From IMG/VR virus record IMGVR_UViG_3300027607_000007, positions 1-40,762 of that record: 40,762 nt of DNA. One strand, given 5' to 3'. How positions within the stretch are numbered: the stretch's first letter is position 1; each line of letters begins with the position of its first letter. The translations under genes and the position numbers were made by a program. This document shows, in pieces, positions 1 through 24,332 of the stretch. This DNA is from a virus. The notes under the pieces are model-generated. The model ran no database searches, was not told the origin of the DNA, and saw only the letters and a program-made list of their open reading frames with translations.

Positions 1-202
1 CGAGGTCGGCGAGTACATCGACCGGCATGAACGTATCGCGGTGCCGATCATTGCCGGTGTTGGAATAGTCGTTGAGCGTCTTGCGACCGACACGGGTGAT
101 ATCTGCAAAGGCATCCAGACCGCCCGCCTGCTTTATGCTTCGGTGCGTTGCAACTTTTAGCCGCTGCCGCACCGGATCATTGACGCCGCCAAAGCCCGTC
201 AT
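1..202 (-). CDS. Phage CII-like regulatory protein, N-terminal part (partial)
   Basis: This gene runs off the left edge. The minus-strand frame from the ATG at 202 is open for 67 codons and shows a conserved pattern (AGGLDAFADITRVGRKTLNDY, then FMPVDVLADL) that I associate with small CII-type or YmfL-type regulators of alphaproteobacterial phages. Such proteins sit directly after a Cro-like gene and set the lysis-lysogeny balance. The ATG overlaps the stop codon of the upstream Cro-like gene (ATGA), so translation is probably coupled, and a GGGGGTGG stretch before it can serve as ribosome-binding site. The family match is inferred from the motif and gene order. Confidence 0.6.
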   Translation of the reverse strand, partial: MTGFGGVNDPVRQRLKVATHRSIKQAGGLDAFADITRVGRKTLNDYSNTGNDRHRDTFMPVDVLADL

Positions 203-468
203 ACATCCACCCCCACTTTTTCTCGATTTTGTGGGGATGACTGAGGCTCGGAAATTAAAGATGATGCCCCTGAAACATCAAAACCAAACAGATCACCTGC
301 CGTAACAACGCCGTTTGTCGCTCGAACGATTCGACTTGCAAGCGCTCGGCCTGGGAAGCGTTTGCCGCTGATAATGCGGCATATGGTGGAAGGCGTAGAA
401 CCGACTGTTTCAGCAAACTCAGTTTGTGAAATTTTGTTGACGGTCAAATATGTCTCAAGGCGTGACAT
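199..468 (-). CDS. Cro-like helix-turn-helix protein
   Basis: This 89-residue protein has an XRE/Cro-type helix-turn-helix near residues 13-40 (ISQTEFAETVGSTPSTICRI). It is the first gene of a leftward operon with the CII-like gene, with which it shares an ATGA overlap. It diverges from a CI-like gene, which is the classical lambdoid immunity layout. There is no Shine-Dalgarno sequence before the ATG: the 17-base palindrome at 470-486 almost abuts the start codon. The mRNA may therefore be leaderless, and a bound repressor would block it. The C-terminal tail (residues 60-89) is low in structure. It could alternatively be a YdaS-type antitoxin-like regulator. Confidence 0.7.
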   Translation of the reverse strand: MSRLETYLTVNKISQTEFAETVGSTPSTICRIISGKRFPGRALASRIVRATNGVVTAGDLFGFDVSGASSLISEPQSSPQNREKVGVDV

Positions 469-469
469 A

Positions 470-486
470 GCGGCAATTATTGCCGC
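470..486. promoter_or_regulatory. Perfect 17-base palindrome, likely Cro/CI operator
   Basis: GCGGCAATTATTGCCGC is a perfect odd palindrome lying one base upstream of the Cro-like start codon. The core CAATTATTG recurs in another palindrome at 2570-2584. Its position between divergent regulator genes makes an operator the simplest reading. Confidence 0.6.
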
Positions 487-534
487 AATATTTCCAAAGA
501 GGCAACATGCTTGATCAAAAACATGATGATTTTG

Positions 535-575
535 ATTGCCAAATAGGCCCTAGTACATTGTTCCTATTTGGCAAT
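535..575. promoter_or_regulatory. 13-base inverted repeat, likely second immunity operator
   Basis: ATTGCCAAATAGG (535-547) is repeated in perfect inverse at 563-575 with a 15-base spacer. The same TTGCCAAATAGG word recurs at 2550-2561 in non-coding DNA. It lies just upstream of the preferred start of the CI-like gene, a place where a repressor would autoregulate its own promoter. Confidence 0.55.
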
Positions 576-584
576 AATAAATGT

Positions 585-992
585 ATGCACAAGAGCCCAA
601 TCAAACTTGCCAAGCAGATCACTGGCTATACGCAAGAGCGACTTGCCGAAGAATTAGGTATTTCGCCTGGGCATCTATCCCGCATGAGCAACAGCAAACG
701 CCGGATAACGACGGACTACATTGAGCGCCTCGCAAGCGTTTGTGACGTCACCACGGACGAGTTCTATCGACTGCTCGGCACCGAGCCAGGAGACGTTGAA
801 AACGCTTCCGAAAACTTGGTTGGTCACACAGCGAACGAACCACTTGTGCTAAATCCAAGCGTTTTTAAGAAAGCGTATGAACGCGCAAAGGCAATCGAAA
901 AAACCACCTTGGGTGGCAGAGGTTCGAATGCCGATTTCGCAGTAATTTTTGACGAAGTTTACGCTGATTTTTCCGAACAAGAAGGAGACTAA
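585..992 (+). CDS. CI-like repressor (XRE HTH, no peptidase domain)
   Basis: This protein of about 135 residues has a clear XRE helix-turn-helix (YTQERLAEELGISPGHLSRM), followed by a recognition-helix region and a tail without an S24 LexA-type peptidase domain. SOS autocleavage as in lambda is therefore not expected. I chose the ATG at 585 because it leaves the inverted repeat 535-575 non-coding. It has no good Shine-Dalgarno sequence, so the transcript may be leaderless like lambda cI from PRM. The alternative ATG at 507 does have an AGAGG sequence before it and would add 26 residues. The gene diverges from the Cro-like gene and is followed two bases later by the next gene, so it heads a rightward operon of three. 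Confidence 0.75.
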   Translation: MHKSPIKLAKQITGYTQERLAEELGISPGHLSRMSNSKRRITTDYIERLASVCDVTTDEFYRLLGTEPGDVENASENLVGHTANEPLVLNPSVFKKAYERAKAIEKTTLGGRGSNADFAVIFDEVYADFSEQEGD

Positions 993-994
993 CT

Positions 995-1276
995 ATGTGG
1001 CGCCCCGATTTCATCGCACTGTACAGGTGTAAAAAGCCCTACAACTTAGAAGACACACACTCGGATAATCTCGCGTGGATCAGGCAGGAAGAGTGCTACG
1101 GTCTCGCAAAAAGCTTCTCTCTCGCCGTGTCAGGCCATGAGCGATACAGTGACCTCAAAGGCGATGAAATACTGAGGTTCGACGATCTCCTTAGACCTTT
1201 CTTGATGGCTTCGCAGAAACAGCGCAAACTGTTGATGCAACGCCAAGAGCAAGTCGCAAGACGACGAAGAAAATGA
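995..1276 (+). CDS. Hypothetical protein, basic C-terminus
   Basis: This 93-residue protein is not recognised. It follows the CI-like gene by two bases and has a good GAAGGAG ribosome-binding site. The C-terminal 25 residues are strongly basic (QKQRKLLMQRQEQVARRRRK), which suggests nucleic-acid or partner binding. Its stop overlaps the start of the next gene (ATGA), so the three genes from 585 to 1959 look like one transcript. Confidence 0.6.
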   Translation: MWRPDFIALYRCKKPYNLEDTHSDNLAWIRQEECYGLAKSFSLAVSGHERYSDLKGDEILRFDDLLRPFLMASQKQRKLLMQRQEQVARRRRK

Positions 1277-1959
1277 ACGGTCTAGTCATAGAGCAACCCA
1301 TCAAGATTTTGACGCAATCTCGGCTAGACGAGTTTGCCTGTACTTTGCTTTCAAAATGGCAGAAATCCGAGGGCTATCTGACAGGAGATTTTGTTGTCGA
1401 TGTCGAGAAGTTGGTAATCCTTGATCAGCCGTCAGCAAATCAGCCATCTCCTGAAATTCTTTTTTGCGGCGAAGACGCTTTAGCGTCCCGAACCATTGGA
1501 GACAGCTGGTTAATCCAACCTGTCAAGGCCGAGGCATTTGAATACGAATTCAGATGTTTAATCGGCACCCACTACAAAAAAGCGCAAAAGACAAATCAAC
1601 CAGTTCTAGGCCTCGTTTCAGCGCCTACCTTCGTCAATCAGAAACTTTTTAATTTCAACTATGAACGGCTTATTTTGCCTATGAGGACAGCCGGCGGCTC
1701 TCAATTTCTATACTGTTATAGTTTTTTGCCGACGGTCACAGATCGTAGGTCAGCTCCCGCACGACCTGGCGTATTCCTCGGCGATCAATTCCTACAAAAT
1801 ACACATCCCGCAAATCAACTTGCTTGGGAGGAACACGCCATTCAATTCCTCTCGGATAGACGATCGTGTATCCCCAACGCGCCGCATAACCAGCAAGTAC
1901 TTTGTCAGGGCGCATCCAGCCATATGTTAACTCAGGCTTCCACTCATCATAGGCCATGA
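1273..1959 (+). CDS. PAS_5-like protein with apparent read-through tail
   Basis: The first ~155 residues match the general pattern of PAS_5 (DUF1388-type) single-domain proteins common in alphaproteobacteria: an N-terminal helix with a Trp, a central beta-rich stretch, and an ERLILPM...GGSQFLYCYS strand pair near residues 130-150. The role is presumably sensory or regulatory. The last ~75 residues (from about position 1735) run antisense through the 3' end of the leftward gene at 1736 and read like the shadow of that gene. The native stop may therefore have been lost by a rearrangement and the tail may be non-native. It starts with ATGA overlap to the preceding gene. Confidence 0.55.
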   Translation: MNGLVIEQPIKILTQSRLDEFACTLLSKWQKSEGYLTGDFVVDVEKLVILDQPSANQPSPEILFCGEDALASRTIGDSWLIQPVKAEAFEYEFRCLIGTHYKKAQKTNQPVLGLVSAPTFVNQKLFNFNYERLILPMRTAGGSQFLYCYSFLPTVTDRRSAPARPGVFLGDQFLQNTHPANQLAWEEHAIQFLSDRRSCIPNAPHNQQVLCQGASSHMLTQASTHHRP

Positions 1960-2485
1960 GGATCAGTAGCCTTTGGATCAGGCCTAAGAGATCGCCACCC
2001 CGATAGTCTTTGGCGATCCAGCCGTCTCCAATGTAAGAAAATGGTCCAGTTATTCCGCTGGCATACAAGCAGCTATTGGGTGCCATTTCTGCGAAAACGC
2101 CATCCTCTTCCGCAGGATATATTCGGGACCAATGAGCAGACAGGAAGTCTTTTAGGTCCCAACCTGGACGATCGTCATAACGGGCTCCACACATACCTAT
2201 TGGCAATCCAGCCTCATTATAGGCAGCAATTATCATTGCCTGTTCGGGCGATATGTCATTCATGTTTCTTGCAAAGTGCGGCCCAAGATCACCCTTACCG
2301 ATCTGCTGAGAAACAAGCTCCATTTCTGAGATTTGGTTTAGAAGTCGAATTGACCTCACTCCAGAAACTGCCATTGCCTGCGATCGCAAAGACTCGCATG
2401 CAGAATGAATGTCGAGCTTGTTTATCGATCTGGACAACTTGAAACCCCGCCTCGACCCAGAACCCGCCAAAAGTCCGCAGAACAT
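1736..2485 (-). CDS. Putative GNAT-fold acyltransferase-like protein
   Basis: This protein of about 249 residues has a mixed alpha/beta composition. A central stretch (FSYIGDGWIAKDYRGGDLLG, then LLILMAYDEWKPELTYGWM) resembles the acetyl-CoA-binding loop and following helix of GNAT-type acyltransferases, which would make it a cytoplasmic transferase. This is a pattern resemblance only. The ATG at 2485 is used here; a TTG at 2515 is also possible, and neither has a good ribosome-binding site. The 3' end overlaps the rightward PAS-like gene by 224 bases. Operator-like palindromes at 2550-2584 lie just upstream, so it may belong to the same repressor regulon as the immunity genes. Confidence 0.5.
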   Translation of the reverse strand: MFCGLLAGSGSRRGFKLSRSINKLDIHSACESLRSQAMAVSGVRSIRLLNQISEMELVSQQIGKGDLGPHFARNMNDISPEQAMIIAAYNEAGLPIGMCGARYDDRPGWDLKDFLSAHWSRIYPAEEDGVFAEMAPNSCLYASGITGPFSYIGDGWIAKDYRGGDLLGLIQRLLILMAYDEWKPELTYGWMRPDKVLAGYAARWGYTIVYPRGIEWRVPPKQVDLRDVYFVGIDRRGIRQVVRELTYDL

Positions 2486-2549
2486 TAGACAATATTGATC
2501 ATCAAGCGAACCCAAACGTACGCATTTTCAACAGTAGCTAGAAATTGTC

Positions 2550-2584
2550 TTGCCAAATAGGCAATTTCCTGACAATTATTGTCA
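2550..2584. promoter_or_regulatory. Pair of operator-like palindromes
   Basis: TTGCCAAATAGGCAA (2550-2564) shares a 12-base word with the inverted repeat at 535-575. TGACAATTATTGTCA (2570-2584) shares the CAATTATTG core with the palindrome at 470-486. The pair lies upstream of the leftward GNAT-like gene and of the rightward small gene at 2689. Confidence 0.55.
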
Positions 2585-2688
2585 TGCGAGGTGCGCAATA
2601 ATGACATATGCAATGAAAACGTTGGCAATGAGTGTTGCCTTATTGGAAAGTCAAAACAGCGAACTGAAACTTGGAAAGGCCACCTGTC

Positions 2689-2946
2689 GTGAAAAAACTG
2701 ATTGCCCGATTTCGAGCCCGTTTCGTATTTTGGCTTCTTCCGGACATCGAAGGGCATCTGATCATACGGTCGATGAATTTCAACAAACGGTCAGTTGGCC
2801 CCGAAAGCAAGTATCGGGACCCCGCCGAGTTCATCTATCCGCGACTTTATCCGGAAGGGTACAGCGACCCCTTTATCAAAAAGAAAAGTCCCGGTACGAA
2901 ATCCGGCCTTCCCGCGCCTCGAGTGCCATATCAGCATCTTCAATAA
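2689..2946 (+). CDS. Small hypothetical protein
   Basis: This 85-residue frame starts at a GTG with GGAAAGG nine bases before it. The N-terminus is basic then hydrophobic (KKLIARFRARFVFWLLPDIEG), which could be a membrane-associated helix; the rest is polar. The last ~70 bases overlap the convergent gene at 2876-3166, so one of the two may end earlier or be spurious. I do not recognise a family. Confidence 0.4.
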   Translation: MKKLIARFRARFVFWLLPDIEGHLIIRSMNFNKRSVGPESKYRDPAEFIYPRLYPEGYSDPFIKKKSPGTKSGLPAPRVPYQHLQ

Positions 2947-3166
2947 TTTCTAGGAGTGAGTGGAGAACTCTGAATTCTTCGTGCGGGTCGCCACGCAGGC
3001 CGATCAGAAACCTGCACCACTTAACGAGATCATCGCGATCCAGATCGTGGTTCATCTGCGCGTACGACAAGAACATCGAGAGAAACTCTCGTAGGTCACC
3101 CTGCTCGCGCTCCAAAAAAGAAACCCTTTCTTCAAGCGTGCGTTCTTGGTTGTCGGTTCCAGCCAT
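2876..3166 (-). CDS. Small acidic coiled-coil protein
   Basis: This 96-residue protein has an N-terminal coiled-coil segment (RTLEERVSFLEREQGDLREF), followed by an acidic helical domain with RDDLVKWCRFLIGLRGD and EEFRVLHSLLEIIEDAD. A strong ribosome-binding site (TGGAGAAGAGAC) precedes the ATG. It diverges from the gene at 3339. Function is unknown; small accessory phage proteins often look like this. Confidence 0.6.
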   Translation of the reverse strand: MAGTDNQERTLEERVSFLEREQGDLREFLSMFLSYAQMNHDLDRDDLVKWCRFLIGLRGDPHEEFRVLHSLLEIIEDADMALEAREGRISYRDFSF

Positions 3167-3197
3167 GTCTCTTCTCCAGTATGGTGTGGTTGGACAA

Positions 3198-3230
3198 GGG
3201 CGCGCTGTTCAGGCCAATGACAGCGCGCCC
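3198..3230. repeat. 11-base perfect inverted repeat (hairpin)
   Basis: GGGCGCGCTGT and ACAGCGCGCCC form a perfect 11-bp GC-rich stem around an 11-base loop, between two divergent genes. There is no T-run on either side, so it is not a typical terminator. It could be an operator or an RNA structure. Confidence 0.6.
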
Positions 3231-3338
3231 ACTCATTCCACGGTTAAGTTGGACGAGAAGTTACAATCTCAGGCTGCAGGAAAATTGCAATTAGAGTTGG
3301 TAGCGTTTCCCCACAATGCACACGCATGAGATGCAACC

Positions 3339-3791
3339 ATGACAGCCAGTGTGAAGAACACTCTTTCGGCAATCCGTGTTCTGGAACAGGCGCTGCATGA
3401 AGCCGAAACCCGGCAAGGCCCGCCGAAAAAACTCCTGTGCATCGCCTTCAATCTGAAGACGCTGCTCAACTCCGTTTGTAAATGCGTTGACAGCCTGGCG
3501 GCTCAGATCCGCTTCTACCAAAGCGCCAAAAGCCCGACCCGCGCGTTGATCGTCACCCATGACGATGGACGCGAGGAATACGTGAGCGGTCAGAAAGTGC
3601 AGACGCTCTGCCTGCACCTTCCCGATCAGGCAGAAGACGCAGTCATATTTGGCAAGCCGGAAGCCTTGAGCGCGATCGCCGCCGCTCTTGCCGCGTCCGG
3701 ACAACAAGTCACCGGCCCCGCCCAGATCCACGATCTTGCAAAGCAGCTCGGAGCGACAGCACCGGGCGCAGAAAGGCAGCGCCAGCCATGA
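3339..3791 (+). CDS. Hypothetical phage-type protein
   Basis: This 150-residue protein is predicted to be mostly helical, with an N-terminal helical hairpin around residues 5-60 and a small beta segment near residues 68-95 (RALIVTHDDGREEYVSGQKV). It is not recognised. The ribosome-binding site is weak. It overlaps the next gene by four bases (ATGA), so 3339-4331 is a tight three-gene operon ending in an AlpA-type regulator. Confidence 0.55.
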   Translation: MTASVKNTLSAIRVLEQALHEAETRQGPPKKLLCIAFNLKTLLNSVCKCVDSLAAQIRFYQSAKSPTRALIVTHDDGREEYVSGQKVQTLCLHLPDQAEDAVIFGKPEALSAIAAALAASGQQVTGPAQIHDLAKQLGATAPGAERQRQP

Positions 3792-4075
3792 GCAGCAGCC
3801 TAATCGAACTCATTCGCAGCACAGCCCCCTTTGCGCTCATGTCGCTCTCCGGGCTTTGCATCGCCATCATGTTTTTGAATCTGCGCAAGGGCAGCAATGC
3901 CGACGCGCGACCCAGCTTCGGCCATTGGCCGGACACCGCGAAGCGGACCTCCCCTCAGACCGTTCGGCTGGAAGCAGCCGCGCGACGTCTGTCCCTTGGC
4001 CTCGCCGTTGGAATAGCCACCGGCGAGGCCCTTTTCTTTCTCTTTCCTGGGGAATCAAATGAGAGAACCGGTTGA
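3788..4075 (+). CDS. Small membrane protein
   Basis: This 95-residue protein has two predicted membrane helices: residues ~12-30 (APFALMSLSGLCIAIMFL) and ~70-88 (LGLAVGIATGEALFFLF). An Arg-rich loop lies between them. It is coupled to the upstream gene by an ATGA overlap and overlaps the next gene by 17 bases. Function is unknown. The layout is compatible with a small holin-like or superinfection-exclusion-like protein, but nothing specific supports either. Confidence 0.55.
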   Translation: MSSSLIELIRSTAPFALMSLSGLCIAIMFLNLRKGSNADARPSFGHWPDTAKRTSPQTVRLEAAARRLSLGLAVGIATGEALFFLFPGESNERTG

Positions 4076-4331
4076 GATGTTGAGCGCTCGCGAATTGGAA
4101 GCTATTTCCAGTGACACAGCGATCATGACAATCAAGGAAGTTGCGGCGGACACCAAGCTTGCCGAACCGACGATTTACGAACTGGTTCGCAAGAAGAAGT
4201 TTCCGGCGAGCTTCAGCCTGATCGGACGAAAGAGTGTCTGGCTTAAATCAGAGGTCGAATCTTGGAAGCGATGGCGCATTGAAACCGCCAAAGGCAAAGA
4301 GCGCTGGCAACCACCCGTTACTGACAGCTGA
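4059..4331 (+). CDS. AlpA-family HTH regulator / excisionase-like protein
   Basis: This 90-residue protein has a winged-helix MerR/AlpA-type DNA-binding domain: MTIKEVAADTKLAEPTIYEL at residues 23-42, then RKKKFPASFSLIGRKSVWLK, and a C-terminal SEVESWKRWR helix. AlpA-like proteins commonly act as recombination directionality factors or as activators of integrase genes in prophages and ICEs. A GGGGA ribosome-binding site precedes the ATG. It is the last gene before the non-coding interval 4332-4616. Confidence 0.75.
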   Translation: MREPVEMLSARELEAISSDTAIMTIKEVAADTKLAEPTIYELVRKKKFPASFSLIGRKSVWLKSEVESWKRWRIETAKGKERWQPPVTDS

Positions 4332-4616
4332 TTGCCGCAGCACGCACACCTGGGGTCAGGAGCCATTAATCTCAACGATGCCGAATGACTGCTTGGAAGC
4401 CAGTGTGACTAATGCTGCGCCGCACCAATGCGTTTTTCCGCAGTCTGGGTAAAGTCTTTCCAATAACAACGAGGTTTCAATTCGTTTTTTTAGCTCTAGT
4501 CCCTCGGTACTGGACGTGAAAAAGCACTATCGCAACCCTGTAGCTTCCCTTAAACAGTGTAACGCTATGAAGTACTATGCTAAAATTCAAGGCTAAAGTC
4601 AGAACCGGAGAGCGTA
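4332..4616. other. Intergenic region
   Basis: This 285-base stretch holds no convincing gene. The base composition shifts towards A+T near 4450, and the sequence TACTATGCTAAAAT around 4573-4586 could be a -10 region for the three-gene cluster that follows. No matching -35 or terminator is clear. Confidence 0.35.
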
Positions 4617-5900
4617 GTGTCAGACAGCAGCAGCAATTACACAGTTTCTCGCCGGAGTCTCCTTCAAGCGCTCGCATTTACACCCGCGTTTACAGTCCCA
4701 GCAGTTTGGCCAATTCAAGCCGCTGCGGATGCTCTAGTTGCGCTAAAAGGTGCCAACTTGGCCTTAGGTGCCATAAGTGCTTTCGCGCGCCCAGGCAACG
4801 GCCTAGGCGCTATGCTTCGTGCTCAAATGCAAATGCTGCAACTTATCTCCATCCAATTGAACAATATTCACATTGAACTCGCCAGACTTCATGAGACTAT
4901 TAAAGACACGTCAGAGGACCAAAAAGCCTTTATAAACCAACGCTTCCTTGACAAAGAGACTTCCAACATATCGGGCGCAGCTCGCCGATACAGCGAAGCG
5001 CTTACAGCAAGTGGCGGTGATCCAGGCCATTTCACAATTCCCAGCGTCATGGCAGACATTGAAGACATTCGCAATGTTGTCGCTCAAACGCGAACTTCTA
5101 TTCAGGGTGTAAATGGTGGATTAGGTGCAGATGCGAGTCTTGTTTTGCCAGTTTCATGTGCTGTGGAGATCGCTGTTCGGCTTCATCTCAATCAACCTAC
5201 TTCCACGGTTAAGGAAACGCTCAACGGCTACCTAGATTGGCTAAATCGTATACTTGGTGATCAACCGGGGTCCATTTCTAGTGAAATGTCGTCTCTTGCA
5301 TCAGAACACGACGAAACTGTCGACGATATCCCCGATTATCACTGGCTTTCAGAACAGATGCGAAAACAGTTAAAAGTTGGTAGCGATTGGAGAAATTTTG
5401 ACGCCAATGAATGCTATCTTTTTGTCTCAGGCGTTGTCCCTGGACATAACCTAAGTTTCGATATTGCAGAAGGAATTGAGCCATATGCACGGCAGAATCT
5501 TGACGTGTACACATACTCGCGGAGCGTTAACTTCTCTCGTAATTTGAACGACGAGCTGGGGGCTTATCTATTTGAAGTCGACTATGCGAATTCGGGCATC
5601 CGAGGGGTTTCCATTACCCTCCGAGGTGGCCGTACCCAAGGCTTCCCACCCCACAGGTTTAGCGAGTGTCGCAAGACAAATCGGGCTCCCGCCGGTCCCC
5701 GTATGAGAAATGCTTCACAAGTAATTGAGTACATTGAGAATACTGCTCTGCATAAAGAATTTAAGTCGCAGGAGCGAGAGTTCGCGTCTTTCATAACATT
5801 CCTCAACAAGTTTAGAGCAAAGCTTGCTTACCACGCGATAGCACGCGTTGTAGCAATTGAAACACGCAACGAAGTGCGCGCAAGATTGAGTATTATCTGA
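4617..5900 (+). CDS. Tat-exported protein of unknown function
   Basis: This 427-residue protein starts at a GTG with CCGGAG six bases upstream. The N-terminus is a good twin-arginine signal: SRRSLLQ at about residues 11-17, a hydrophobic stretch, then an AxA-like cleavage site near IQAAADA. The product is therefore probably folded before export to the periplasm. Residues ~45-110 contain a hydrophobic Gly/Ala segment and a long amphipathic helical region (MLQLISIQLNNIHIELARLH), which resembles helical pore-forming or membrane-interacting proteins in general character only. The stop TGA overlaps the next ATG by one base. I do not recognise the family. Confidence 0.65.
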   Translation: MSDSSSNYTVSRRSLLQALAFTPAFTVPAVWPIQAAADALVALKGANLALGAISAFARPGNGLGAMLRAQMQMLQLISIQLNNIHIELARLHETIKDTSEDQKAFINQRFLDKETSNISGAARRYSEALTASGGDPGHFTIPSVMADIEDIRNVVAQTRTSIQGVNGGLGADASLVLPVSCAVEIAVRLHLNQPTSTVKETLNGYLDWLNRILGDQPGSISSEMSSLASEHDETVDDIPDYHWLSEQMRKQLKVGSDWRNFDANECYLFVSGVVPGHNLSFDIAEGIEPYARQNLDVYTYSRSVNFSRNLNDELGAYLFEVDYANSGIRGVSITLRGGRTQGFPPHRFSECRKTNRAPAGPRMRNASQVIEYIENTALHKEFKSQEREFASFITFLNKFRAKLAYHAIARVVAIETRNEVRARLSII

Positions 5901-6958
5901 TGGTAAGACACAATTTTTTCCGCATATTCAGTGTTTCTATCTGGTTTCTTGCGTCACTTCTTTTTGCCGATTATTCACTGGCCCAAGCACGATCACCAAC
6001 ACTGGAGCGTGTCAACTTCTACCGCGACGTAGGTAGGTTAATTCGACAAACGCGCTCTTACATCACTGACTCGTCGCGAAATGCTGCCGCAAAGAATGCC
6101 GTTGATGGACTAGGCAAAGAGATATCTGAGTATTTGACCTGGACCTCTGATCGAGGAGCGTTGATCGAAGTTCGGGTTGAGAAGCACCCGAATCCTGACA
6201 TCGGTATTGCGTCAATCCTTGGCAGCCCCGTCCTGCTTGGATACGGTGATACGCCAACCAACGTTTTGGCGGCGTCAACATTAACGGAGCGTTTTCCGAG
6301 TCCTCGAGACGGGTTCATTGAAGCACCAGACCTAAGTTTTTTCATATGGGCTGAGCATCGAGAGTATTTCTTGGGTTTCCGCTCTGCGCTCCATTATGGT
6401 TACATTCCGTCAGAGTTCAGCGAAAAAATAAGAAGGGATGCGTTGCGGATACGTTCTGATCAAGGCGTTATCGATTCAATTCGAACGGTCCGTAAAGCAG
6501 CGATCCGGCGCTCAGCTGTAGAAAGGCTCGCGGAGCTCGCTGACGACGAAGCTCAAGCGCTTCGTATTAGAAATATTTATGATTCTATTGCCAGTAATCA
6601 AGAAATAATTTCTAGTATTCAAAATCAGCTAAATCGCGATTTAGAAGACTTGCGTAAGGCTAATGACCTTTATGCTCGCATCAATCAGCTAAAAGCAATA
6701 CTTGACGTCTCAATTTTTGTTACAGAATACAAGGCGTCTTTCCCAGAGGACGCTGAAGAAGTTGAAAATGTTCGCGATCCGGAAGTCCTGAAGGAATATG
6801 TAGAAAAAACACGCATTGAAAAGGATGGATATGTTATCGAAGGGGAAAGACAGTTGACACTTCTGCGCGACAATAATCAGAGATCATCTGCCGAGATAAG
6901 GAGTGAGCTAGTACAGAAGGGCGCGCCGCGTAATGTCCAAAAAGAATTCGAGCAGTAA
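5900..6958 (+). CDS. Secreted coiled-coil protein of unknown function
   Basis: This 352-residue protein has a Sec signal peptide (about 28 residues, ending SLAQA). Residues ~30-180 are mixed. The region from ~185 to the end is highly charged and helical, with coiled-coil stretches (NQLNRDLEDLRKANDLYARI). It shares one base with the upstream stop codon and overlaps the next gene, so the three are translationally coupled. It is probably a periplasmic partner of the Tat substrate encoded before it. No family is recognised. Confidence 0.6.
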   Translation: MVRHNFFRIFSVSIWFLASLLFADYSLAQARSPTLERVNFYRDVGRLIRQTRSYITDSSRNAAAKNAVDGLGKEISEYLTWTSDRGALIEVRVEKHPNPDIGIASILGSPVLLGYGDTPTNVLAASTLTERFPSPRDGFIEAPDLSFFIWAEHREYFLGFRSALHYGYIPSEFSEKIRRDALRIRSDQGVIDSIRTVRKAAIRRSAVERLAELADDEAQALRIRNIYDSIASNQEIISSIQNQLNRDLEDLRKANDLYARINQLKAILDVSIFVTEYKASFPEDAEEVENVRDPEVLKEYVEKTRIEKDGYVIEGERQLTLLRDNNQRSSAEIRSELVQKGAPRNVQKEFEQ

Positions 6959-7316
6959 TAACATGCTCTCAAAATTTAACATAGGGAATTTAAATCGAGA
7001 CTCATATTTGCCCAAAAGAGCTCCCTATATCTATTTGTTTGGAATTAGTTTTATCTCTTACTTTTATCATGAATTTATTTATTATGTGCATTTTCCAATA
7101 GAATCGCGAAATCATGATTGGGGTGGGCTTATTCATCTTGATTATCGACTTATTGGGGCAACTCTGGTATTCTTAATTACATACTTTTTTGGAACAATTA
7201 CTCTTATTTTTTTCAGCTTCCGTAAAGGATTTTTTTCATCAACTATTAAGAAGCCGCAATTTATTTTAGGCTGGATTATGGCATTATTATGCACAGGAAT
7301 TCTAATATTTACCTAA
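6933..7316 (+). CDS. Small membrane protein, third gene of the exported cluster
   Basis: This 127-residue protein has three predicted membrane helices: ~32-50 (YIYLFGISFISYFYHEF), ~72-95 (IGATLVFLITYFFGTITLIF) and ~108-126 (ILGWIMALLCTGILIF). It is strikingly AT-rich compared with its neighbours. The start may be the ATG at 6933 (overlapping the previous gene by 26 bases) or the ATG at 6963, four bases after the upstream stop. It is likely the inner-membrane member of the cluster. Function is unknown. Confidence 0.55.
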   Translation: MSKKNSSSNNMLSKFNIGNLNRDSYLPKRAPYIYLFGISFISYFYHEFIYYVHFPIESRNHDWGGLIHLDYRLIGATLVFLITYFFGTITLIFFSFRKGFFSSTIKKPQFILGWIMALLCTGILIFT

Positions 7317-7490
7317 TAGTTTCAAAGTACTTTGTAGTTGGCACCAGCGAGTCAAGCAATCTAGCGGTTATTTCGAAGCGAAATCATCAATAACAAGAAG
7401 AAGAATTACTGCCGTGTCCCTTGACTCGGTCATGCGCCACTACGGGGATTCAGACTGTGTGAACGGTATGGTTCAAATACGCAGGAGGAA
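7317..7490. other. Non-coding, degenerate region
   Basis: No gene is seen here. It is the start of a decayed interval between the exported cluster and the tRNA scar. A strong ribosome-binding sequence (GCAGGAGGAA, 7481-7490) at its end belongs to the transposase remnant that follows. Confidence 0.4.
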
Positions 7491-7496
7491 TTGCAC

Positions 7497-7556
7497 ATGT
7501 CTGATCACTATTGGCTAACTAAACCCAGCTTGAGCGTATCCAACAATACTTCCCAC
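7497..7556 (+). mobile_element. IS5-family transposase remnant (5' end only)
   Basis: Downstream of a strong AGGAGG the frame begins MSDHYWLTK. After restoring one missing base it continues TQLERIQQYFP, which is the typical N-terminus of IS5-group (IS427-like) transposase OrfA proteins. The similarity stops after about 20 codons. The element is therefore frameshifted and truncated and cannot be active. Flanking inverted repeats were not found. Confidence 0.5.
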
Positions 7557-7674
7557 GATCTCGTGGAATTCGGTTCAATTTCGCTCTTTTTATGGCAACC
7601 CTTCACGCCGCAGTGTGGTGGTGCGGCTGATGACAAGCGCCCAAAAGGGGCGAAGTGAATTGGATTCTTGAACA

Positions 7675-7869
7675 GCTAATGGCCTGGATCGTGGAAATCC
7701 TGCACATTACGGCTTCATCAATCGCCAGCACTTTCAACGAAAGTTCGACATCTTCGAACCGCACGCTGTAATCGATTTTCGGCAGTACCAGAAAAGGAAC
7801 CCCGGCGCGATGGAATACGACAGAAGCCGAAAGGCATATATCGCCAGATCGAAGGCGAGTTCTAACTCT
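7675..7869 (+). pseudogene. Fragment of WYL-type HTH regulator
   Basis: In this frame, which opens directly after an in-frame TGA, the stretch around 7723-7842 reads FQRKFDIFEPHAVIDFRQYQ, then PGAMEYDRSRKAYIA. This fits the conserved N-terminal HTH of WYL-domain transcriptional regulators, where an R/L-x-x-RF-x-IS-x-PQAS-x-D pattern is followed by YDRS-x-K-x-Y. There is no start codon in place and the WYL domain is absent, so it is a remnant. Confidence 0.45.
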
Positions 7870-7889
7870 AAGCTTATGTGCTATTCTAT

Positions 7890-7936
7890 TGGAACCCAGA
7901 AATTGAAATTTCCGTTTTGGGTTCCAATTGGGTTCC
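7890..7936. repeat. GGAACCC/GGGTTCC cluster, left copy
   Basis: This block contains GGAACCC, an inverted GGGTTCC and a further GGGTTCC. The same arrangement, with one additional base and few changes, recurs at 8147-8196 on the other side of the tRNA scar. It is a candidate arm-type integrase binding region or the relic of a former integrase leader. Confidence 0.5.
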
Positions 7937-8064
7937 ACAACATCTCATCTCGCCACATAGCACGACAGCGGTCAGTACACTCAATTGCCTTTTAATCCGC
8001 AGTTATCTGCGATAAATATATGCCCACTGTAGTTCCGCATAGTGGGCAATAATGATCGCAAAAC

Positions 8065-8111
8065 GACTTTTAATCAGTAGGTCCAGGGTTCGAACCCCTG
8101 TCGGCTCACCA
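8065..8111 (+). other. Attachment-site scar: 3' half of tRNA-Lys(UUU)
   Basis: The sequence reads as the anticodon loop (CTTTTAA), variable region, a perfect T-arm (CAGGG TTCGAAC CCCTG), the 3' acceptor strand TCGGCTC, discriminator A and CCA. No matching 5' half (GAGCCGA acceptor, D-arm) is present upstream and the 5' side of the anticodon stem does not pair. It is therefore an att duplication left by integration at a tRNA-Lys gene, not a functional tRNA. It lies 98 bases upstream of the integrase start. Confidence 0.8.
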
Positions 8112-8146
8112 AAAAATCCTAAAAATACAATCACTTATGACAGCTC

Positions 8147-8196
8147 TGGAACCCAGAGATTGACACCTCTTGTGTTTTGGGTTCCGAATTGGGTCC
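8147..8196. repeat. GGAACCC/GGGTTCC cluster, right copy
   Basis: This is the near-copy of 7890-7936: GGAACCC, then inverted GGGTTCC and GGGTCCC. It lies between the tRNA scar and the integrase start, the usual location of arm-type sites. Confidence 0.5.
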
Positions 8197-8209
8197 CGGA
8201 GGTGTCACT

Positions 8210-9493
8210 TTGGAAACCCTAAGAATGACGGATCGCTGGCTTCAAGCGCTAAGACCGTCGAAAGAACGTCGAGAGTTTGCTGATAGCATTTGCCCCGGCC
8301 TTCGTCTGCGTGTCGGAGCACGTTCGATGGTTTGGTCAGCGTTGGTACGCGGTCCTGATGGTCGTAAGCGCATCGCGCTCGGAAGTTATCCTAAGGTCAC
8401 ATTACAGACCGCCCGGCAACTGGTTGATGAGGCAAACGAGGTGGCCAAGACAAGCACCACTTCTGCCACCAAAGAAATCGGCAAGCAGGGCAGCGTCCGC
8501 GACCTCTTCAATTTTGTGGTGACACAAATGCGATCGGAGGGCGTATCCACGGTCGATCAATATGAGGCCTACCTCATCAACCGCGCTGATAGCGCATTGA
8601 ATGTGATCGGTGTAGACGACAGCGGCGTTGATCTTCCCGCGAACCAGATTACGCCCGATGATGTGACCCGCTGGTTGCGCGGCTTTCATGAAATCGGCGC
8701 CCTCACCGGCCATCCACGCGCTTATCTGTCCGCCGCTTTTGGACGCGGACTTTCTGCGGATTACGATCCGACGAACCCAAACCCTGAAATCCGGTTCAAC
8801 CTGGCGTCAAACCCGGTCACACACGTGGGCGGCAAGATGAAAGGCAGGCCCAGGAATCGAGCGCTCACGATAAACGAACTGACTGCCTTTTGGCACGGCT
8901 TCTCGGGACGCGGTGTCAGCCCTTCAATGAAACTATTGTTTCGTCTCATTATAAGTATGGGTGGCGTTCGGATCACTGAAATCGTTCGTTGCGAGAAATC
9001 TTGGTTCGAAACACGCGAGAAACGGCTTTGGCTCGCCCTGCCGCGCACCAAAAACGATCACCCCCACGATTTGCCGCTAACCAAGATGGCGAACGCTGTG
9101 CACTCCGCCGCCGTTCAAATTTCCGATCCCGCGAGCAACTTTCTGTTTCCGAAGCACCACAAGCCAGGCGAACCGCAGACGCTCAACAGCATCAGCCAGG
9201 CAACAAGAAAGTGGTGCGATAGACATGAGGCATCACGGTTTCAGCCCCGCGACATTCGTCGCACCTTTAAAACCTTATTGATTGAAAGAAACCCAAGCCT
9301 CAATCGCGACTGGATCGACGTATGGCATAATCACGGACGTGCGGCAGACGTCGCGCGCAAGCACTATGACCGCGCTGAATACACCGAAGTTAAGAAGGCC
9401 ATCGCCAAGGCAATCGATGATCTTTTGATCGAAATTCAAGATAGGAGATGCGTTGATGTCGCGACGCAGGAGTCGAGGGACAATCAGTATTAA
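8210..9493 (+). CDS. int: P4-type tyrosine integrase (DUF4102 arm-binding domain)
   Basis: This integrase of about 427 residues has an N-terminal DUF4102-type arm-binding domain (ADSICPGLRLRVGARSMVWS, then GRKRIALGSYPKVTLQTAR), a central SAM-like domain, and a C-terminal catalytic domain. The catalytic Arg is in SMGGVRITEIV, the Lys in RTKNDHP, the Arg of the second box in RDIRRTF, and the Tyr in ARKHYDRAEY. I prefer the TTG at 8210 because GGAGG lies seven bases upstream; an ATG at 8225 is also possible. It starts just after a tRNA-Lys scar, which is the typical target of this family. It would integrate and excise the element to its right. Confidence 0.9.
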   Translation: METLRMTDRWLQALRPSKERREFADSICPGLRLRVGARSMVWSALVRGPDGRKRIALGSYPKVTLQTARQLVDEANEVAKTSTTSATKEIGKQGSVRDLFNFVVTQMRSEGVSTVDQYEAYLINRADSALNVIGVDDSGVDLPANQITPDDVTRWLRGFHEIGALTGHPRAYLSAAFGRGLSADYDPTNPNPEIRFNLASNPVTHVGGKMKGRPRNRALTINELTAFWHGFSGRGVSPSMKLLFRLIISMGGVRITEIVRCEKSWFETREKRLWLALPRTKNDHPHDLPLTKMANAVHSAAVQISDPASNFLFPKHHKPGEPQTLNSISQATRKWCDRHEASRFQPRDIRRTFKTLLIERNPSLNRDWIDVWHNHGRAADVARKHYDRAEYTEVKKAIAKAIDDLLIEIQDRRCVDVATQESRDNQY

Positions 9494-10172: not shown

Positions 10173-10190
10173 CGGCTCCTTACATGTCAC
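10173..10190 (-). promoter_or_regulatory. Repeated ribosome-binding block, copy 1
   Basis: On the minus strand it reads GTGACATGTAAGGAGCCG. It directly precedes the GTG start of the 59-residue gene. Related blocks lie at 11403, 12135 and 13118. Confidence 0.6.
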
Positions 10191-10624
10191 GTTTGGTTTC
10201 CTGAATTTCACGGATCAGCTGACCCCAAATAGACGCCCTGACCACCACACGAGCACCGCACAGAATGCGATTAGAATTACGAGGGCGACGAAAATTCTTT
10301 TGTCACTCGAGGTTATGAAGTCGGGTCTCTTTTTTCGCATCGTCTCAAGAACGTCTTCCCGGCTGAATACGCAAACACTGTGAGGTTTCCCAATCGCATT
10401 ATCGCCACTTGATTCAATTCGCTGGCGAAGCATATAAGGGCTTCTACTTAGTACCCGCCCGACATGATGATCATTTGGTGATCCGCATCTCCTGATGATC
10501 GCATGCAAAACGGTCTTTGCAGCAATAACAGACGCATGGTTTCCCAACCACTACCCCACTAACGTGCGTCAATACTAGATACCTTTCTCCCGGCACGCAG
10601 CTGTCGGGATTTTCTTTTGACCGT
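10174..10624. repeat. ~450-bp duplicated module, copy 1
   Basis: This block is repeated at 12136-12586 with roughly 90 percent identity by eye. It carries the 110-residue gene, its upstream region with a hairpin followed by TTTTCTTTT, and the repeated ribosome-binding block at its left end. Each copy is followed by a different leftward gene. Confidence 0.85.
10215..10547 (-). CDS. 110-residue membrane-anchored protein, copy 1
   Basis: The soluble N-terminal ~80 residues include SPYMLRQRIESSGDNAIGKP and a helix EDVLETMRKKRPDF. The C-terminus is one membrane helix (IFVALVILIAFCAVLVWWSG). The start is a TTG; no better start is available near it. A paralogue with the same length lies at 12177-12509. 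Conservation of the reading frame in both copies supports it being a gene. Function is not recognised. Confidence 0.6.
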   Translation of the reverse strand: MGNHASVIAAKTVLHAIIRRCGSPNDHHVGRVLSRSPYMLRQRIESSGDNAIGKPHSVCVFSREDVLETMRKKRPDFITSSDKRIFVALVILIAFCAVLVWWSGRLFGVS

Positions 10625-12134: not shown

Positions 12135-12152
12135 GGGCTCCTTATGTGTCAC
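12135..12152 (-). promoter_or_regulatory. Repeated ribosome-binding block, copy 3
   Basis: On the minus strand it reads GTGACACATAAGGAGCCC. A GTG follows immediately and opens a frame of 24 codons that ends just before the secreted-protein gene at 12056, so it could drive a short leader peptide coupled to that gene. Confidence 0.5.
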
Positions 12153-12586
12153 GTTTGGTTTCCTGAATTTCACGGATTAGCTGACCCCAAATAGCCGCCC
12201 CGACCACCACACGAGCACCGCACAGAACGCGATTAGAATTGCAAGTGCGAGGAAATTTCTTTTGTCACGCGGAGTGATGAATTCGGGTCTCTTTTTTCGC
12301 ATCGTTTCAAAAACGTCTTCCTGGCTGAATACGCAAACACTGTGAGGTTTTCCAATCGCATTATCGCCACTTGATTCAATTCGCTGGCGAAGCATATAAG
12401 GGCTTCTACTTAGTACCCGCCCGACATGATGATCATTTGGTGATCGGCATCTCCTGATGATCGCATGCACAACGGTCTTTGTAGCAACAACAGGCGCATG
12501 GTTTCCCAACCACTACCCACTACATGCGTCAAAACTGAATACCTTTCTCCCGGCACGCCACTGTCGGGATTTTCTTTTTTGACCCT
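12136..12586. repeat. ~450-bp duplicated module, copy 2
   Basis: This is the second copy of the block at 10174-10624, in the same orientation about 1.96 kb away. The two copies flank the SnoaL-like and secreted-protein genes as direct repeats. Confidence 0.85.
12177..12509 (-). CDS. 110-residue membrane-anchored protein, copy 2
   Basis: This is the paralogue of the gene at 10215-10547, identical in length with about 15 substitutions. The C-terminal membrane helix (FLALAILIAFCAVLVWWSGR) and the central block SPYMLRQRIESSGDNAIGKP are retained. The start is again TTG. Function is unknown. Confidence 0.6.
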   Translation of the reverse strand: MGNHAPVVATKTVVHAIIRRCRSPNDHHVGRVLSRSPYMLRQRIESSGDNAIGKPHSVCVFSQEDVFETMRKKRPEFITPRDKRNFLALAILIAFCAVLVWWSGRLFGVS

Positions 12587-13163: not shown

Positions 13164-13322
13164 TGTTTCAACCTTGGCCGTGATATCGCTCTGCCATGGC
13201 TCGGCTTTGCCACTTTTGATTGTTTAACGAGAGTTTACTATTTTCAGGGCTTATGATATTTGACAAGTGTTCTTTTTAGAAAGCGATAGCGTTTCTAGTC
13301 TATTTTATTGTTGGGGGATCCA

Positions 13323-14099
13323 ATGAAAAAGCACCTAATCGCCGGAGCTCTGGCAAGCCTGCTTTGCGCAGGGCCTGCCTTGGCAACACCCGTCTTCGTG
13401 CTTGACGGCAGTCAGGGCTGGGCCAATACAGACACCCGGCCCGGCGGCACAACATCAATAGAAAACGGACCGGGGAATGTCGGTGCATTGAAACTCAGCA
13501 CCAATGCGACGAACGCGGCCAAGGCAGAGGTCGGCATCTTCGGCAATTTCGGGACGGTCAGTAGTCTAATCAGCAACGGCTTCAGCATCAGCTACGACTG
13601 GTTCGATGTCTCCGGAACGGGTGTAGCAGCCCCTTCAATAAAGCTCGCGTTTTATAATGCGGGGTTTGCTGGGGACGGTTATGGGCAGCTTGTCTTCGAG
13701 CCCTATGCACAGGGGGCGAGTGCCACGAGTTACATCACACCCACTCAAGACGTCTGGAACACGACCACGGTCGATCTGAACAATGGCCGGAGTTGGAACA
13801 CGGGCATGTTCGGTGTAGGAAGTTCATTCGCGGGGCCACCGAACAATACCCTGGCCGAATGGCTGCCGCTGTTTGACTCAGCATTCCAAAATGCCCAACT
13901 CGTGGGCGTGTCGATCGGTTTGGGATCTTTTAATCCGTCTGAGATGGGCTTTGTCGATAATGTCAACATTTCCGGCACTCTTCTGGACGACAACTATGAT
14001 TTCAGCGTCGTCCCGGTGCCAGCTGCCCTGCCCCTGATGCTCACCGCACTGGGCTTCTTCGGAATTGGCGCTTGGCGGCGCTCGTCCAGGACCACCTGA
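13323..14099 (+). CDS. VPLPA-CTERM-like exported protein
   Basis: This 258-residue protein has a Sec signal peptide (KKHLIAGALASLLCAGPALA), a beta-rich domain resembling laminin-G or choice-of-anchor domains, and a C-terminal sorting signal: VPVPAALPLMLTALGFF, a short membrane helix, then an Arg-rich end (AWRRSSR). This tripartite tail is typical of VPLPA-CTERM proteins processed by an exosortase, so the product is likely a surface or matrix protein. GGGGGA precedes the ATG at 13323. TTGACA at 13260 could be a -35 element. A strong terminator follows. Confidence 0.8.
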   Translation: MKKHLIAGALASLLCAGPALATPVFVLDGSQGWANTDTRPGGTTSIENGPGNVGALKLSTNATNAAKAEVGIFGNFGTVSSLISNGFSISYDWFDVSGTGVAAPSIKLAFYNAGFAGDGYGQLVFEPYAQGASATSYITPTQDVWNTTTVDLNNGRSWNTGMFGVGSSFAGPPNNTLAEWLPLFDSAFQNAQLVGVSIGLGSFNPSEMGFVDNVNISGTLLDDNYDFSVVPVPAALPLMLTALGFFGIGAWRRSSRTT

Positions 14100-14180: not shown

Positions 14181-14804
14181 CTATTTCTTCCGCATCTTTC
14201 CGGCTTTCTGCAGTTCAGCCGTCCAGTTGTTCCGCAATGTGACCAGCGAAATCCCATACTTTTTCGCTATCGAATTCATGCTCTGAGCAGGATCTTTGAC
14301 ATCCGCCAAGATCTGTTTCGCCTTGGCCGGTTCGTCCCGCTCCCATTTCTCGCGCTTCGGAATCGCACCGACCTGCTTTCCGGCTTTTCGCGCCGCCTCC
14401 ATTCCGGCCTTTGTCCGCTCTGAGGCAAGCTCGCTTTCCATCTGAGCGAATGACGCCATCATTCGGAACATCATGCGGCCATTGGCACTTTTGAAATCAA
14501 CCGGCTGATGAAGGCAGACCAATTCAATTTCGCGCTCTTCCAGCCAAGAAACGAATTGCTCCAGTTCGATTAGGTTCCGGCCCAAGCGGTCAAGCTTGGT
14601 CACCACGACCTTATCTCCCGGCTGAAGCGAGAATTTCAGCCATTTCAGCTGATCACGCTTCATGTTTTTCCCCGACTGCTTTTCCTCAAAGATTTCGTCG
14701 CAGCCGTATTCCTTCAGTGCCTGCAATTGATGCCGCAGATCCTGGTCCTCTGTGCTGACACGGGCATAACCCCAAGTCCGCGTCACATAGGGATATTTGT
14801 TCAA
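14181..14804 (-). CDS. Serine recombinase (resolvase/invertase family)
   Basis: This protein of about 207 residues has a complete resolvase N-terminal domain: catalytic Ser in GYARVSTEDQD (about residue 17), VVTKLDRLGRN, FRMMASFAQMESELASERT. A linker and a C-terminal HTH_7-type helix-turn-helix (MNSIAKKYGISLVTLRNNW) follow. Such enzymes catalyse inversion or resolution of short sites. The start is a TTG with a weak ribosome-binding site; a GTG seven codons later is an alternative. It diverges from the small-gene array, whose promoter region may hold its site. Confidence 0.9.
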   Translation of the reverse strand: MNKYPYVTRTWGYARVSTEDQDLRHQLQALKEYGCDEIFEEKQSGKNMKRDQLKWLKFSLQPGDKVVVTKLDRLGRNLIELEQFVSWLEEREIELVCLHQPVDFKSANGRMMFRMMASFAQMESELASERTKAGMEAARKAGKQVGAIPKREKWERDEPAKAKQILADVKDPAQSMNSIAKKYGISLVTLRNNWTAELQKAGKMRKK

Positions 14805-15113: not shown

Positions 15114-15827
15114 ATGCTCTCGTTGGACCTGTTCAGCTGTATCGGATGCCACGCTATCGGCTTCGAACGCGCCGGCATTGAGGCCGCAGCCCTCTGTGAA
15201 GTGAACGAATGGCGTCGCGCTAGGCTAAAAGAACAGTTTCCAGGAACGGAGATTTATGAAGATGTCCGCACCGTCCCAACCACGAAAGCAAACATCGTTT
15301 TCGGCGGCCCGCCCTGCCAGCGAACAAGTGTTGCTGCCGCTATTCACGGGAAACGAGATGGTGAAAGCCTTTGGCCATACATGCTCAAAGCCGGGCTCGA
15401 TGCCGGAGCAGAATGGATTGTCGTGGAGCAGCCCCCAGGCAACGCGGAATGGGAAGCAGCCGTATCGCGAGACCTTTGCGCAGCTGGCTTCCACGTCGCC
15501 CGACTTGAGTACGGCGCTTGCGACGTTGGCGCGGTCTATCCGAGACGGCGTGTCTACCTTCTGGCCTGCACCAGCCTGTCGAGACTGGAGATCGCCTGGT
15601 CTGCGGTCCCATCCGAGATTGAAAGCGTCAAGAGGGCAGCAGATGCCAGAGCTTCTTGGTGCCCGGATATCCTCGCAACTTTACCAGTGGTCGCTGTCGA
15701 TGCCGGTGAAATGGACCGGGGAGCAAAAAGCCGGGAACGCCGACAATGGATCGAAGCTCTAGGCGACAGCAACCCGCCCGAGATGGCGGAAGTAATTGGC
15801 CGCGCGATCGTGCGTGCGGAATCTTGA
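15114..15827 (+). CDS. Divergent C5-cytosine DNA methyltransferase
   Basis: This 237-residue protein has the Dcm-type motif order: motif I LDLFSCIGCHAIGFERAG, motif IV GGPPCQ with the catalytic Cys at about residue 68, a motif VI-like VVEQPPG, motif VIII YPRRRVY, and a C-terminal motif X (NPPEMAEVIGRAI). It is shorter than usual C5-methyltransferases (>300) because the target-recognition region is very short. Two departures are notable: Gly residues of motif I replaced by Cys, and ENV of motif VI replaced by EQP. Activity is therefore uncertain. It likely protects phage DNA from host restriction. Confidence 0.85.
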   Translation: MLSLDLFSCIGCHAIGFERAGIEAAALCEVNEWRRARLKEQFPGTEIYEDVRTVPTTKANIVFGGPPCQRTSVAAAIHGKRDGESLWPYMLKAGLDAGAEWIVVEQPPGNAEWEAAVSRDLCAAGFHVARLEYGACDVGAVYPRRRVYLLACTSLSRLEIAWSAVPSEIESVKRAADARASWCPDILATLPVVAVDAGEMDRGAKSRERRQWIEALGDSNPPEMAEVIGRAIVRAES

Positions 15828-15844
15828 TCAGAAAGGCCCGGCAG

Positions 15845-16039
15845 ATGCGAACACCGCGACAGATCTTGGGTGATGACGCCTACTCGCAACTCGTTTTCGA
15901 AGGTTACGAGGTGGTGCCGATAAAGCCGACAAAGGAAATCGAAGACGCTCATTTCAAAGCGCATGCGGAAGCGAAAACCGTCTTCGCAGACTTCACCGAT
16001 TTATGGCGCGCGATGATCAGCGCCGCGAACAGAAAATAG
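15845..16039 (+). CDS. 64-residue hypothetical protein, tandem copy 1
   Basis: This small helical protein starts MRTPRQILGDDAYSQLVFEG and ends in DLWRAMISAANRK. GAAAGGCCCGGC precedes the ATG, a leader shared by most genes of the array. The same gene is repeated identically in the next 206 bases. Function is not recognised. Confidence 0.6.
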   Translation: MRTPRQILGDDAYSQLVFEGYEVVPIKPTKEIEDAHFKAHAEAKTVFADFTDLWRAMISAANRK

Positions 16040-16050
16040 AGGCCCGGCAG

Positions 16051-16245
16051 ATGCGAACACCGCGACAGATCTTGGGTGATGACGCCTACTCGCAACTCGT
16101 TTTCGAAGGTTACGAGGTGGTGCCGATAAAGCCGACAAAGGAAATCGAAGACGCTCATTTCAAAGCGCATGCGGAAGCGAAAACCGTCTTCGCAGACTTC
16201 ACCGATTTATGGCGCGCGATGATCAGCGCCGCGAACAGAAAATAG
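16051..16245 (+). CDS. 64-residue hypothetical protein, tandem copy 2
   Basis: This is an identical second copy of the gene at 15845-16039. Its leader is AGAGGCCCGGC because the junction joins the end of one unit to the start of the next. Confidence 0.6.
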   Translation: MRTPRQILGDDAYSQLVFEGYEVVPIKPTKEIEDAHFKAHAEAKTVFADFTDLWRAMISAANRK

Positions 16246-17455: not shown

Positions 17456-18013
17456 TCACCACATGCGCGCAGCAATCAACCGCTCTTCAGGGCCAACCGC
17501 CTGCGCGTAGATCGCCGTCGTCTTCATGTCCGCGTGCCCAAGCCAACGTTGGAGCATGTGAAGCGGAACATTTGACGCGATCGCGTGAATGCCGAAGGCA
17601 TGTCGCAGCCCCTTCGGATTAGCCTGCGGCCCGTCGATCCCGGCGATCATCATGACGTGTTTCAAATGCCGCCAAGCCGTTTGCCGGGAGATAGGCCAGA
17701 ACGGCGAAGGACCTTTCGCAAACGTCGTGCCTATGTCCGCGACCAGAGACGGCGGAAGCGGGATCTCACGAAACACGATCTTGTTCCGCTTCTTGAGCGA
17801 CTGAATGGACACCACACCGGTTTGCGTCTGGAAGCTTTGCGCTGACAACGAAAGCGCTTCTGAGATCCGGCACCCGGAATATGCCATCACCTCACACAGC
17901 AGCCGGGTCTGGTCCGGAGACCGCTGCGCAGCCTCAAGGAATGCATGCCTTTCGCTGCCATTGAGATAAAGGCGCCTGCCATCAGGCGCGTAAAGTTGGA
18001 GACCGCCGTCCAC
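17456..18013 (-). CDS. Minimal tyrosine recombinase (catalytic domain only)
   Basis: This 185-residue protein contains the catalytic residues of tyrosine recombinases: Arg49 in SGCRISEAL, a Lys pair at 74-75, Arg137-His138 in PKGLRHAFG, His160 in WLGHADM and Tyr169 in TAIYAQA. The N-terminal core-binding domain is almost absent, so it is about half the usual size. It may need a partner or be a specialised short integrase, as found on some phages and plasmids. The GTG start at 18013 has AGGG seven bases upstream. It diverges from the acyltransferase across a repeat-rich region. Confidence 0.85.
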   Translation of the reverse strand: MDGGLQLYAPDGRRLYLNGSERHAFLEAAQRSPDQTRLLCEVMAYSGCRISEALSLSAQSFQTQTGVVSIQSLKKRNKIVFREIPLPPSLVADIGTTFAKGPSPFWPISRQTAWRHLKHVMMIAGIDGPQANPKGLRHAFGIHAIASNVPLHMLQRWLGHADMKTTAIYAQAVGPEERLIAARMW

Positions 18014-22908: not shown

Positions 22909-23387
22909 CGGCGCCCCCTGATCGCGCTCGAAACTGCCTGCTTTGCGCCTCCCATCAGCCCAAGGCCGAGCGCACCGCCAACGAGTGCATATGCCCACTG
23001 CAACAGGTCGTCGCCTGTTCGGGGGAAGCCGCCTCCGAAAAATTTGACGTAGACCGGGATGCCGATCTGGTACCAAAGCAAAACAAGGGTCTGCGACCAG
23101 ACCACAAATGCCCAAGCACGCCGAACCATCGGGTCCTCAGACTGGAAACTGGCCTGGATTGTTTTTTGCGCTTCACCGAAGACATCAGCGGCATTTGCCG
23201 CAAGAGCTTCGGTCATCCGCGCCTGCGCGTCCACCCAGGCGACATCAACCTTCGCTTCGGCTTCTGCCACGGTCACCTTCCCATCAGCGACGTCTTTGAG
23301 CAGCGATTTGATTCCGCCAACGAAATCGCCGACCAGTATCGACGACACGATCTTGAGGACCGGCCCGACAAACGAAAGCGGCCCCAT
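22905..23387 (-). CDS. GTA-type holin (three membrane helices)
   Basis: This 160-residue protein matches the holin_3TM / GTA_holin pattern: amphipathic N-terminus (GPVLKIVSSILVGDFVGGI), a charged middle helix, a MVRRAWAFVVWSQTLVLLWY membrane helix, and a final QWAYALVGGALGLGLMG helix. It makes the membrane lesion that lets the endolysin reach the peptidoglycan. The ATG at 23387 overlaps the endolysin stop codon (ATGA), so the two are coupled. Confidence 0.75.
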   Translation of the reverse strand: MGPLSFVGPVLKIVSSILVGDFVGGIKSLLKDVADGKVTVAEAEAKVDVAWVDAQARMTEALAANAADVFGEAQKTIQASFQSEDPMVRRAWAFVVWSQTLVLLWYQIGIPVYVKFFGGGFPRTGDDLLQWAYALVGGALGLGLMGGAKQAVSSAIRGRR

Positions 23388-24289: not shown

Positions 24290-24309
24290 GTGATTTCCTT
24301 TCAGACACG

Positions 24310-24332
24310 AAAAAACCGCCCTGAAGGCGGCT
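24310..24332 (-). terminator. Terminator between fibre and lysis genes
   Basis: On the minus strand CCGCC-TTCAG-GGCGG is followed by TTTTTT. It separates the tail-fibre genes from the lysis cassette. Confidence 0.8.

Follow-up and report, generated by a model that had tools for sequence, protein, structure and literature searches.

A translationally coupled cluster of three orphan genes in a variable slot beside the attP of a temperate phage

The left part of a 40,762-base virus record (the window, meaning the whole stretch of DNA analysed here) carries three tightly packed genes close to an attachment site, and to the right of these are found integrase, tail, capsid (Phage_cap_E, 4.6e-64) and protease genes. 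The locus raises the question of why a phage would carry, at this position, three genes whose products are predicted to be targeted to the cell envelope, and whether they might act against other phages. An earlier note on this DNA had proposed an unrecognised exported cluster lying just within one end of an integrated element, and perhaps serving as a toxin that acts on the envelope, or as an exclusion or defence system. The relevant features of the window and of two sister prophages, one in Labrenzia alba and the other in genome G481, are given in Table 1.

Table 1. Features of the cluster, the attachment site and the slot (window positions unless another source is given)
Feature	Location	Strand	Remarks
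AlpA/Xis-like excisionase-regulator gene, left border of slot	4059..4331	+	Pfam Phage_AlpA 2.6e-8; PHROG excisionase 2.3e-10
Extended -10 promoter-like site TGCTAAAAT	4578..4586	+	consensus match only; ~30 nt upstream of gene 1 GTG
Gene 1	4617..5900	+	GTG start, 427 aa; orphan, no family match
Gene 2	5900..6958	+	ATG start, 352 aa; orphan, no family match
Gene 3	6933..7316	+	ATG start, 127 aa, or 117 aa from ATG 6963; orphan
Relic of IS5-family transposase start, frameshifted	7481..7571	+	73.9% identity to annotated IS5 family transposase, E 9e-5; broken frame
P-side integrase arm-type sites	7890..7936		repeat in common with 8174-8196; counterpart precedes attR core in G481
attP core	8065..8112	+	48 nt, 3' part of L. 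alba tRNA-Lys(UUU) gene, 100%; 98% to attR copy in G481
P'-side integrase arm-type sites	8146..8198		counterpart between tRNA-Lys core and integrase in L. alba
Tyrosine integrase	8177..9493	+	listed from TTG; Arm-DNA-bind_3 2.2e-9, Phage_integrase 2.4e-9, PHROG integrase 2.7e-24
HsdM-PrrC-HsdS-HsdR, anticodon-nuclease-guarded type I R-M, complete sister prophage	L089 (G481 C3:1032000-1046000) 1129-8202	-	between AlpA and attR
Four unrelated small genes in L. alba slot	L088 4812-6449	-	opposite strand; membrane/signal segments by inspection; no confident family match

Coupled genes and their predicted products

The open reading frame list and the sequence of the junctions bear out the coordinates, overlaps and translational coupling that had been described for the cluster. 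Genes 1 and 2 share a single nucleotide in a TGATG junction, and gene 3 either overlaps gene 2 by 26 nt, if translated from the ATG at 6933, or begins 4 nt past the gene 2 stop, if translated from the ATG at 6963. In dinucleotide-preserving shuffles the observed lengths of genes 1 and 2 were never reached (0/500 for each) and that of gene 3 was reached once (1/500), so the three frames are not the product of chance. A GGAG ribosome site is present upstream of the gene 1 GTG, and the extended -10 sequence is possibly the cluster's own promoter. A generic promoter and terminator scan detected nothing resembling a promoter immediately ahead of gene 1, nor any terminator-like site along the plus strand. 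In a lysogen, the genes would probably form one transcription unit that is read from its own start.

Export and membrane assignments were made from motifs and hydropathy rather than with a trained predictor. Protein 1 carries a twin-arginine motif (SRRSLLQ), followed by an uncharged stretch up to residue 37 and an AxA site (AAA) at residues 35-37, which is the sequence pattern of a Tat substrate, and it is predicted to be exported in the folded state by this route. The signal of protein 2 is of the Sec type and ends in YSLAQA, so this protein would leave the cytoplasm via Sec, and it contains a long predicted helix at about residues 188-280, while protein 3 shows three hydrophobic segments and would reside in the inner membrane. 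The Tat, Sec and three-helix membrane signals reported earlier are all recovered in this way, and it is from signal motifs and hydropathy only that all three products are predicted to be targeted to the envelope. Taken with the coupling of the genes, this targeting makes it likely that the products act together in the envelope, where they may form a complex.

The first half of protein 1 is predicted to be helical and the second half mixed, and there are two fairly hydrophobic stretches at about residues 39-57 and 169-187. A helical, partly hydrophobic protein encoded together with a small membrane protein could amount to a toxin that acts on the envelope, in which protein 1, perhaps aided by protein 2, is directed against competitors or the host and protein 3 provides immunity or an anchor. 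However, no toxin family is matched, the cluster has no recognised gene for release or delivery, and the single-sequence AlphaFold model of protein 1 (pLDDT 34) gives no confident fold, so that a toxin is improbable here. The model of protein 2 had a pLDDT of 42, and both values are too low for fold comparison. Helical periodicity was weak in the several segments tried.

The cluster remained unrecognised in every library tried. None of the three proteins had a significant match in Pfam, NCBIfam, PHROGs or PADLOC (the PADLOC models gave 0 families for all three), proteins 1 and 2 had none in the PDB, and tblastn against phages and plasmids found no match to the cluster. In IMG/VR, five scans with different peptides returned an identical contig as the sole match, and a representative-genome scan with gene 1 was empty; both types of scan reach close relatives only. 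Genome searches with genes 1 and 2 covered 87 genomes of the family and a phylum sample of 398, and those with gene 1 only covered an order sample of 397 and a class sample of 385, their sole positive control being the match in the window's own record. More sensitive searches of the sampled Pseudomonadota genomes with genes 1 and 2 gave chance matches only. Several candidates were rejected: a gene 1 match in G466 (E 6e-4, 33% over 78 aa) lies within a frame that encodes a cytochrome c-type protein and is adjoined by no cluster, a match in G041 (C7) is interrupted by stops, those to M20_dimer, LRV, HsbA and staphylopine were under the cut-offs, and PDB matches at E 0.7-1 were unrelated. An Rfam search gave nothing useful, and a literature search found no papers joining Tat with exclusion or prophages.

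The cluster had also been described as AT-richer than its flanks. This is true of gene 3 (31% GC), but genes 1 (48%) and 2 (46%) are near the 48-50% GC of the window's leftmost 3 kb, and are lower only in comparison with the structural half (57.7%). Gene 3 is strongly unlike genes 1 and 2 in codon use as well as in GC. This disparity, the homologues not found and the IS5-family relic adjoining the cluster are compatible with there being no functional system at all, just three drifting orphan genes that were imported with mobile DNA and became coupled by chance. Against such an origin, all three frames are intact and long, they are tightly coupled and carry export signals, and shuffled sequences rarely or never reach their lengths; it is considered quite unlikely.

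The attachment site and the variable slot

The cluster was thought to lie beside an attachment site and just within the terminus of an integrated element. The first part of this is correct, as the 48 nt core is real, but the second part does not hold. In L. alba the order is intact tRNA-Lys, right-hand arm, integrase. In G481 the core comes after the left-hand arm and is succeeded by different DNA, with the intact tRNA-Lys located beside the integrase 53.6 kb away. The window has arm-type repeats on both sides of the core (7914-7936 and 8174-8196) and, since it carries both arms, it contains a complete, joined attP. The DNA therefore represents a circular, excised (or tandem) temperate phage rather than the end of an integrated element. 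The integrase, the true start of which is probably downstream of the listed TTG, has 69-70% identity to the integrases of the two sister prophages.

A 15,792-base contig matches positions 1-8116 of the window except for about one base, and ends 4 nt past the core. Another contig (L007/G002) spans the right end of the window and extends to overlap the far end of the 15,792-base contig within a repeat-rich, leucine-rich-repeat (LRR) gene. These overlaps, and the fact that the G481 prophage measures 53.6 kb, fit a circular phage genome of ~53 kb, the last join being tentative because of the repeats. The LRR protein gene is part of the same phage (L006 15021-15791, plus strand) and is located at the contig end, where its repeats probably broke the assembly. 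Capsid relatives with 74-88% identity are found in Labrenzia and Roseibium genomes, and for this reason the host is very probably a bacterium of the Stappiaceae (Roseibium/Labrenzia).

Several other features of the phage can be described. An ORF at 13308-14099 (plus strand) encodes a protein that has a signal peptide and, at its C terminus, a segment similar to the VPLPA-CTERM sorting domain (TIGR03370, under the cut-off), and an acyltransferase-3 family ORF (18176-19078, plus strand) beside the tail end genes may be a surface-modifying conversion gene. Two ~450-nt copies (10174-10618 and 12136-12578) are about 93% alike, each with a minus-strand ORF of 110 aa, and could have arisen by a recent duplication. 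The region 15114-16245 contains a cytosine C5 methylase-like ORF, after which 206 nt are exactly duplicated in tandem (15834-16039, 16040-16245), and probably represents either a gene that has been broken or a duplication of recent date. A serine recombinase (14181-14804) and a 185-aa tyrosine integrase-type ORF (17456-18013), both on the minus strand, are situated in the stretch that separates the tail genes from the main integrase, where other mobile DNA may have entered.

The left border of the slot is formed by an AlpA/Xis-like gene, and the corresponding genes in the two sister prophages are 69% and 62% identical to it. Relatives of AlpA at E<1e-12 occur in 2 of the 87 family genomes, and both of these also have the integrase. 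Synteny with the two sisters, which are complete or near-complete, takes in tRNA-Lys, integrase, capsid, AlpA, cargo and att. The slot of G481 holds HsdM, PrrC, HsdS and HsdR (PADLOC 1e-155, 2e-130, 1e-121 and 0, respectively), that of L. alba, where the contig stops short of attR, holds four small genes, and that of the window holds genes 1-3 and then the IS5-family relic. A PADLOC SAVED_TM match to one of the L. alba slot genes (8e-4) was partial, probably an artefact of membrane helices, and was discarded. Across the three phages, AlpA, the integrase and the att core are conserved and the slot contents are unrelated, and one of the three known occupants is a recognised defence system. Two hallmarks of a cargo or defence hotspot are present, namely conserved borders enclosing unrelated contents, and at least one recognised anti-phage occupant (in G481). 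There is good support for the AlpA-to-attP interval being a variable cargo slot and for the cluster being accessory cargo of the phage, and the earlier view of an exported, operon-like cargo at an attachment site agrees with the finding that a sister houses PrrC and a type I R-M system in this slot. Since this slot is bounded by the AlpA/Xis-like gene and attP, integration would place the cluster at the attR edge, as lysogenic-conversion cargo of the ~53-kb Stappiaceae phage.

What the cluster may do

In broad terms, the three genes are probably cargo by which the envelope of the host cell is altered or protected. The location of the cluster, the contents of the sister slot and general patterns suggest a role in superinfection exclusion or anti-phage defence, a tentative reading to which we give somewhat less than an even chance. 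The products would act at the level of the envelope, either on an incoming phage (adsorption or DNA entry) or on phage release. Searches of Pfam, NCBIfam, PADLOC and PHROGs, and of the PDB for proteins 1 and 2, yielded no domain, fold or homologue that ties any of the three proteins to defence. A more specific proposal, that of a new three-part envelope exclusion system with an effector that leaves by Tat in its folded state, a periplasmic partner and a membrane anchor, housed in an undescribed defence slot of Stappiaceae phages, is unlikely to be correct.

An accessory slot with products that are all predicted to be envelope-targeted would also suit a lysogenic conversion unrelated to phages, in which altered envelope or surface interactions (adhesion, stress, marine-host association) raise the fitness of the lysogen. 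The same phage carries the acyltransferase-3 gene and the possible VPLPA-CTERM protein, which are other possible conversion genes. However, the sole slot occupant of known function, that of G481, is a defence system, and although conversion of this kind merits some weight it appears rather unlikely. Exported and membrane proteins in a phage could instead serve the lytic phase, as an accessory acting on the envelope in lysis or release, but a lysozyme with a peptidoglycan-binding domain is encoded among the structural genes on the other strand (23387-24346), and the cluster occupies a variable slot and is missing from sisters that retain the rest of the phage, so that a lytic role would be surprising.

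Most prophage cargo is unreadable from sequence. The slot recognised here in a marine phage lineage is short and has sharp borders, and it houses both a known defence system and genes for predicted envelope proteins that are wholly orphan. It thereby offers a few candidates, open to testing, for new systems of exclusion or defence. That the three genes are orphans also indicates that family libraries are incomplete for phages of marine Alphaproteobacteria.

Comparison with known systems

SieA of P22 and Cor of phi80 are membrane or periplasmic superinfection-exclusion proteins of temperate phages, and are one- or two-gene systems. Like them, the cluster is phage-carried and accessory, and its products are predicted to be directed to the envelope; it differs in having three genes, and no sequence relation to these proteins was detected. 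We know of no exclusion protein of the SieA/Cor type that uses Tat export.

The PrrC and type I R-M genes of G481 are a closer parallel in position, as they occupy the same AlpA-att slot in a phage that shares the integrase and att core, but they specify unrelated proteins with a cytoplasmic mechanism and have the opposite orientation.

Anti-phage hotspots of phages and their satellites have been described between psu and int in P4, near cos in P2, and between cI and int in K139-type phages (PMC9122126). The AlpA-attP slot belongs to another phage lineage and position and has three known occupants, but it resembles these hotspots in being a short interval at a fixed place in syntenic phages that is filled by unrelated sets of genes, known defence among them.
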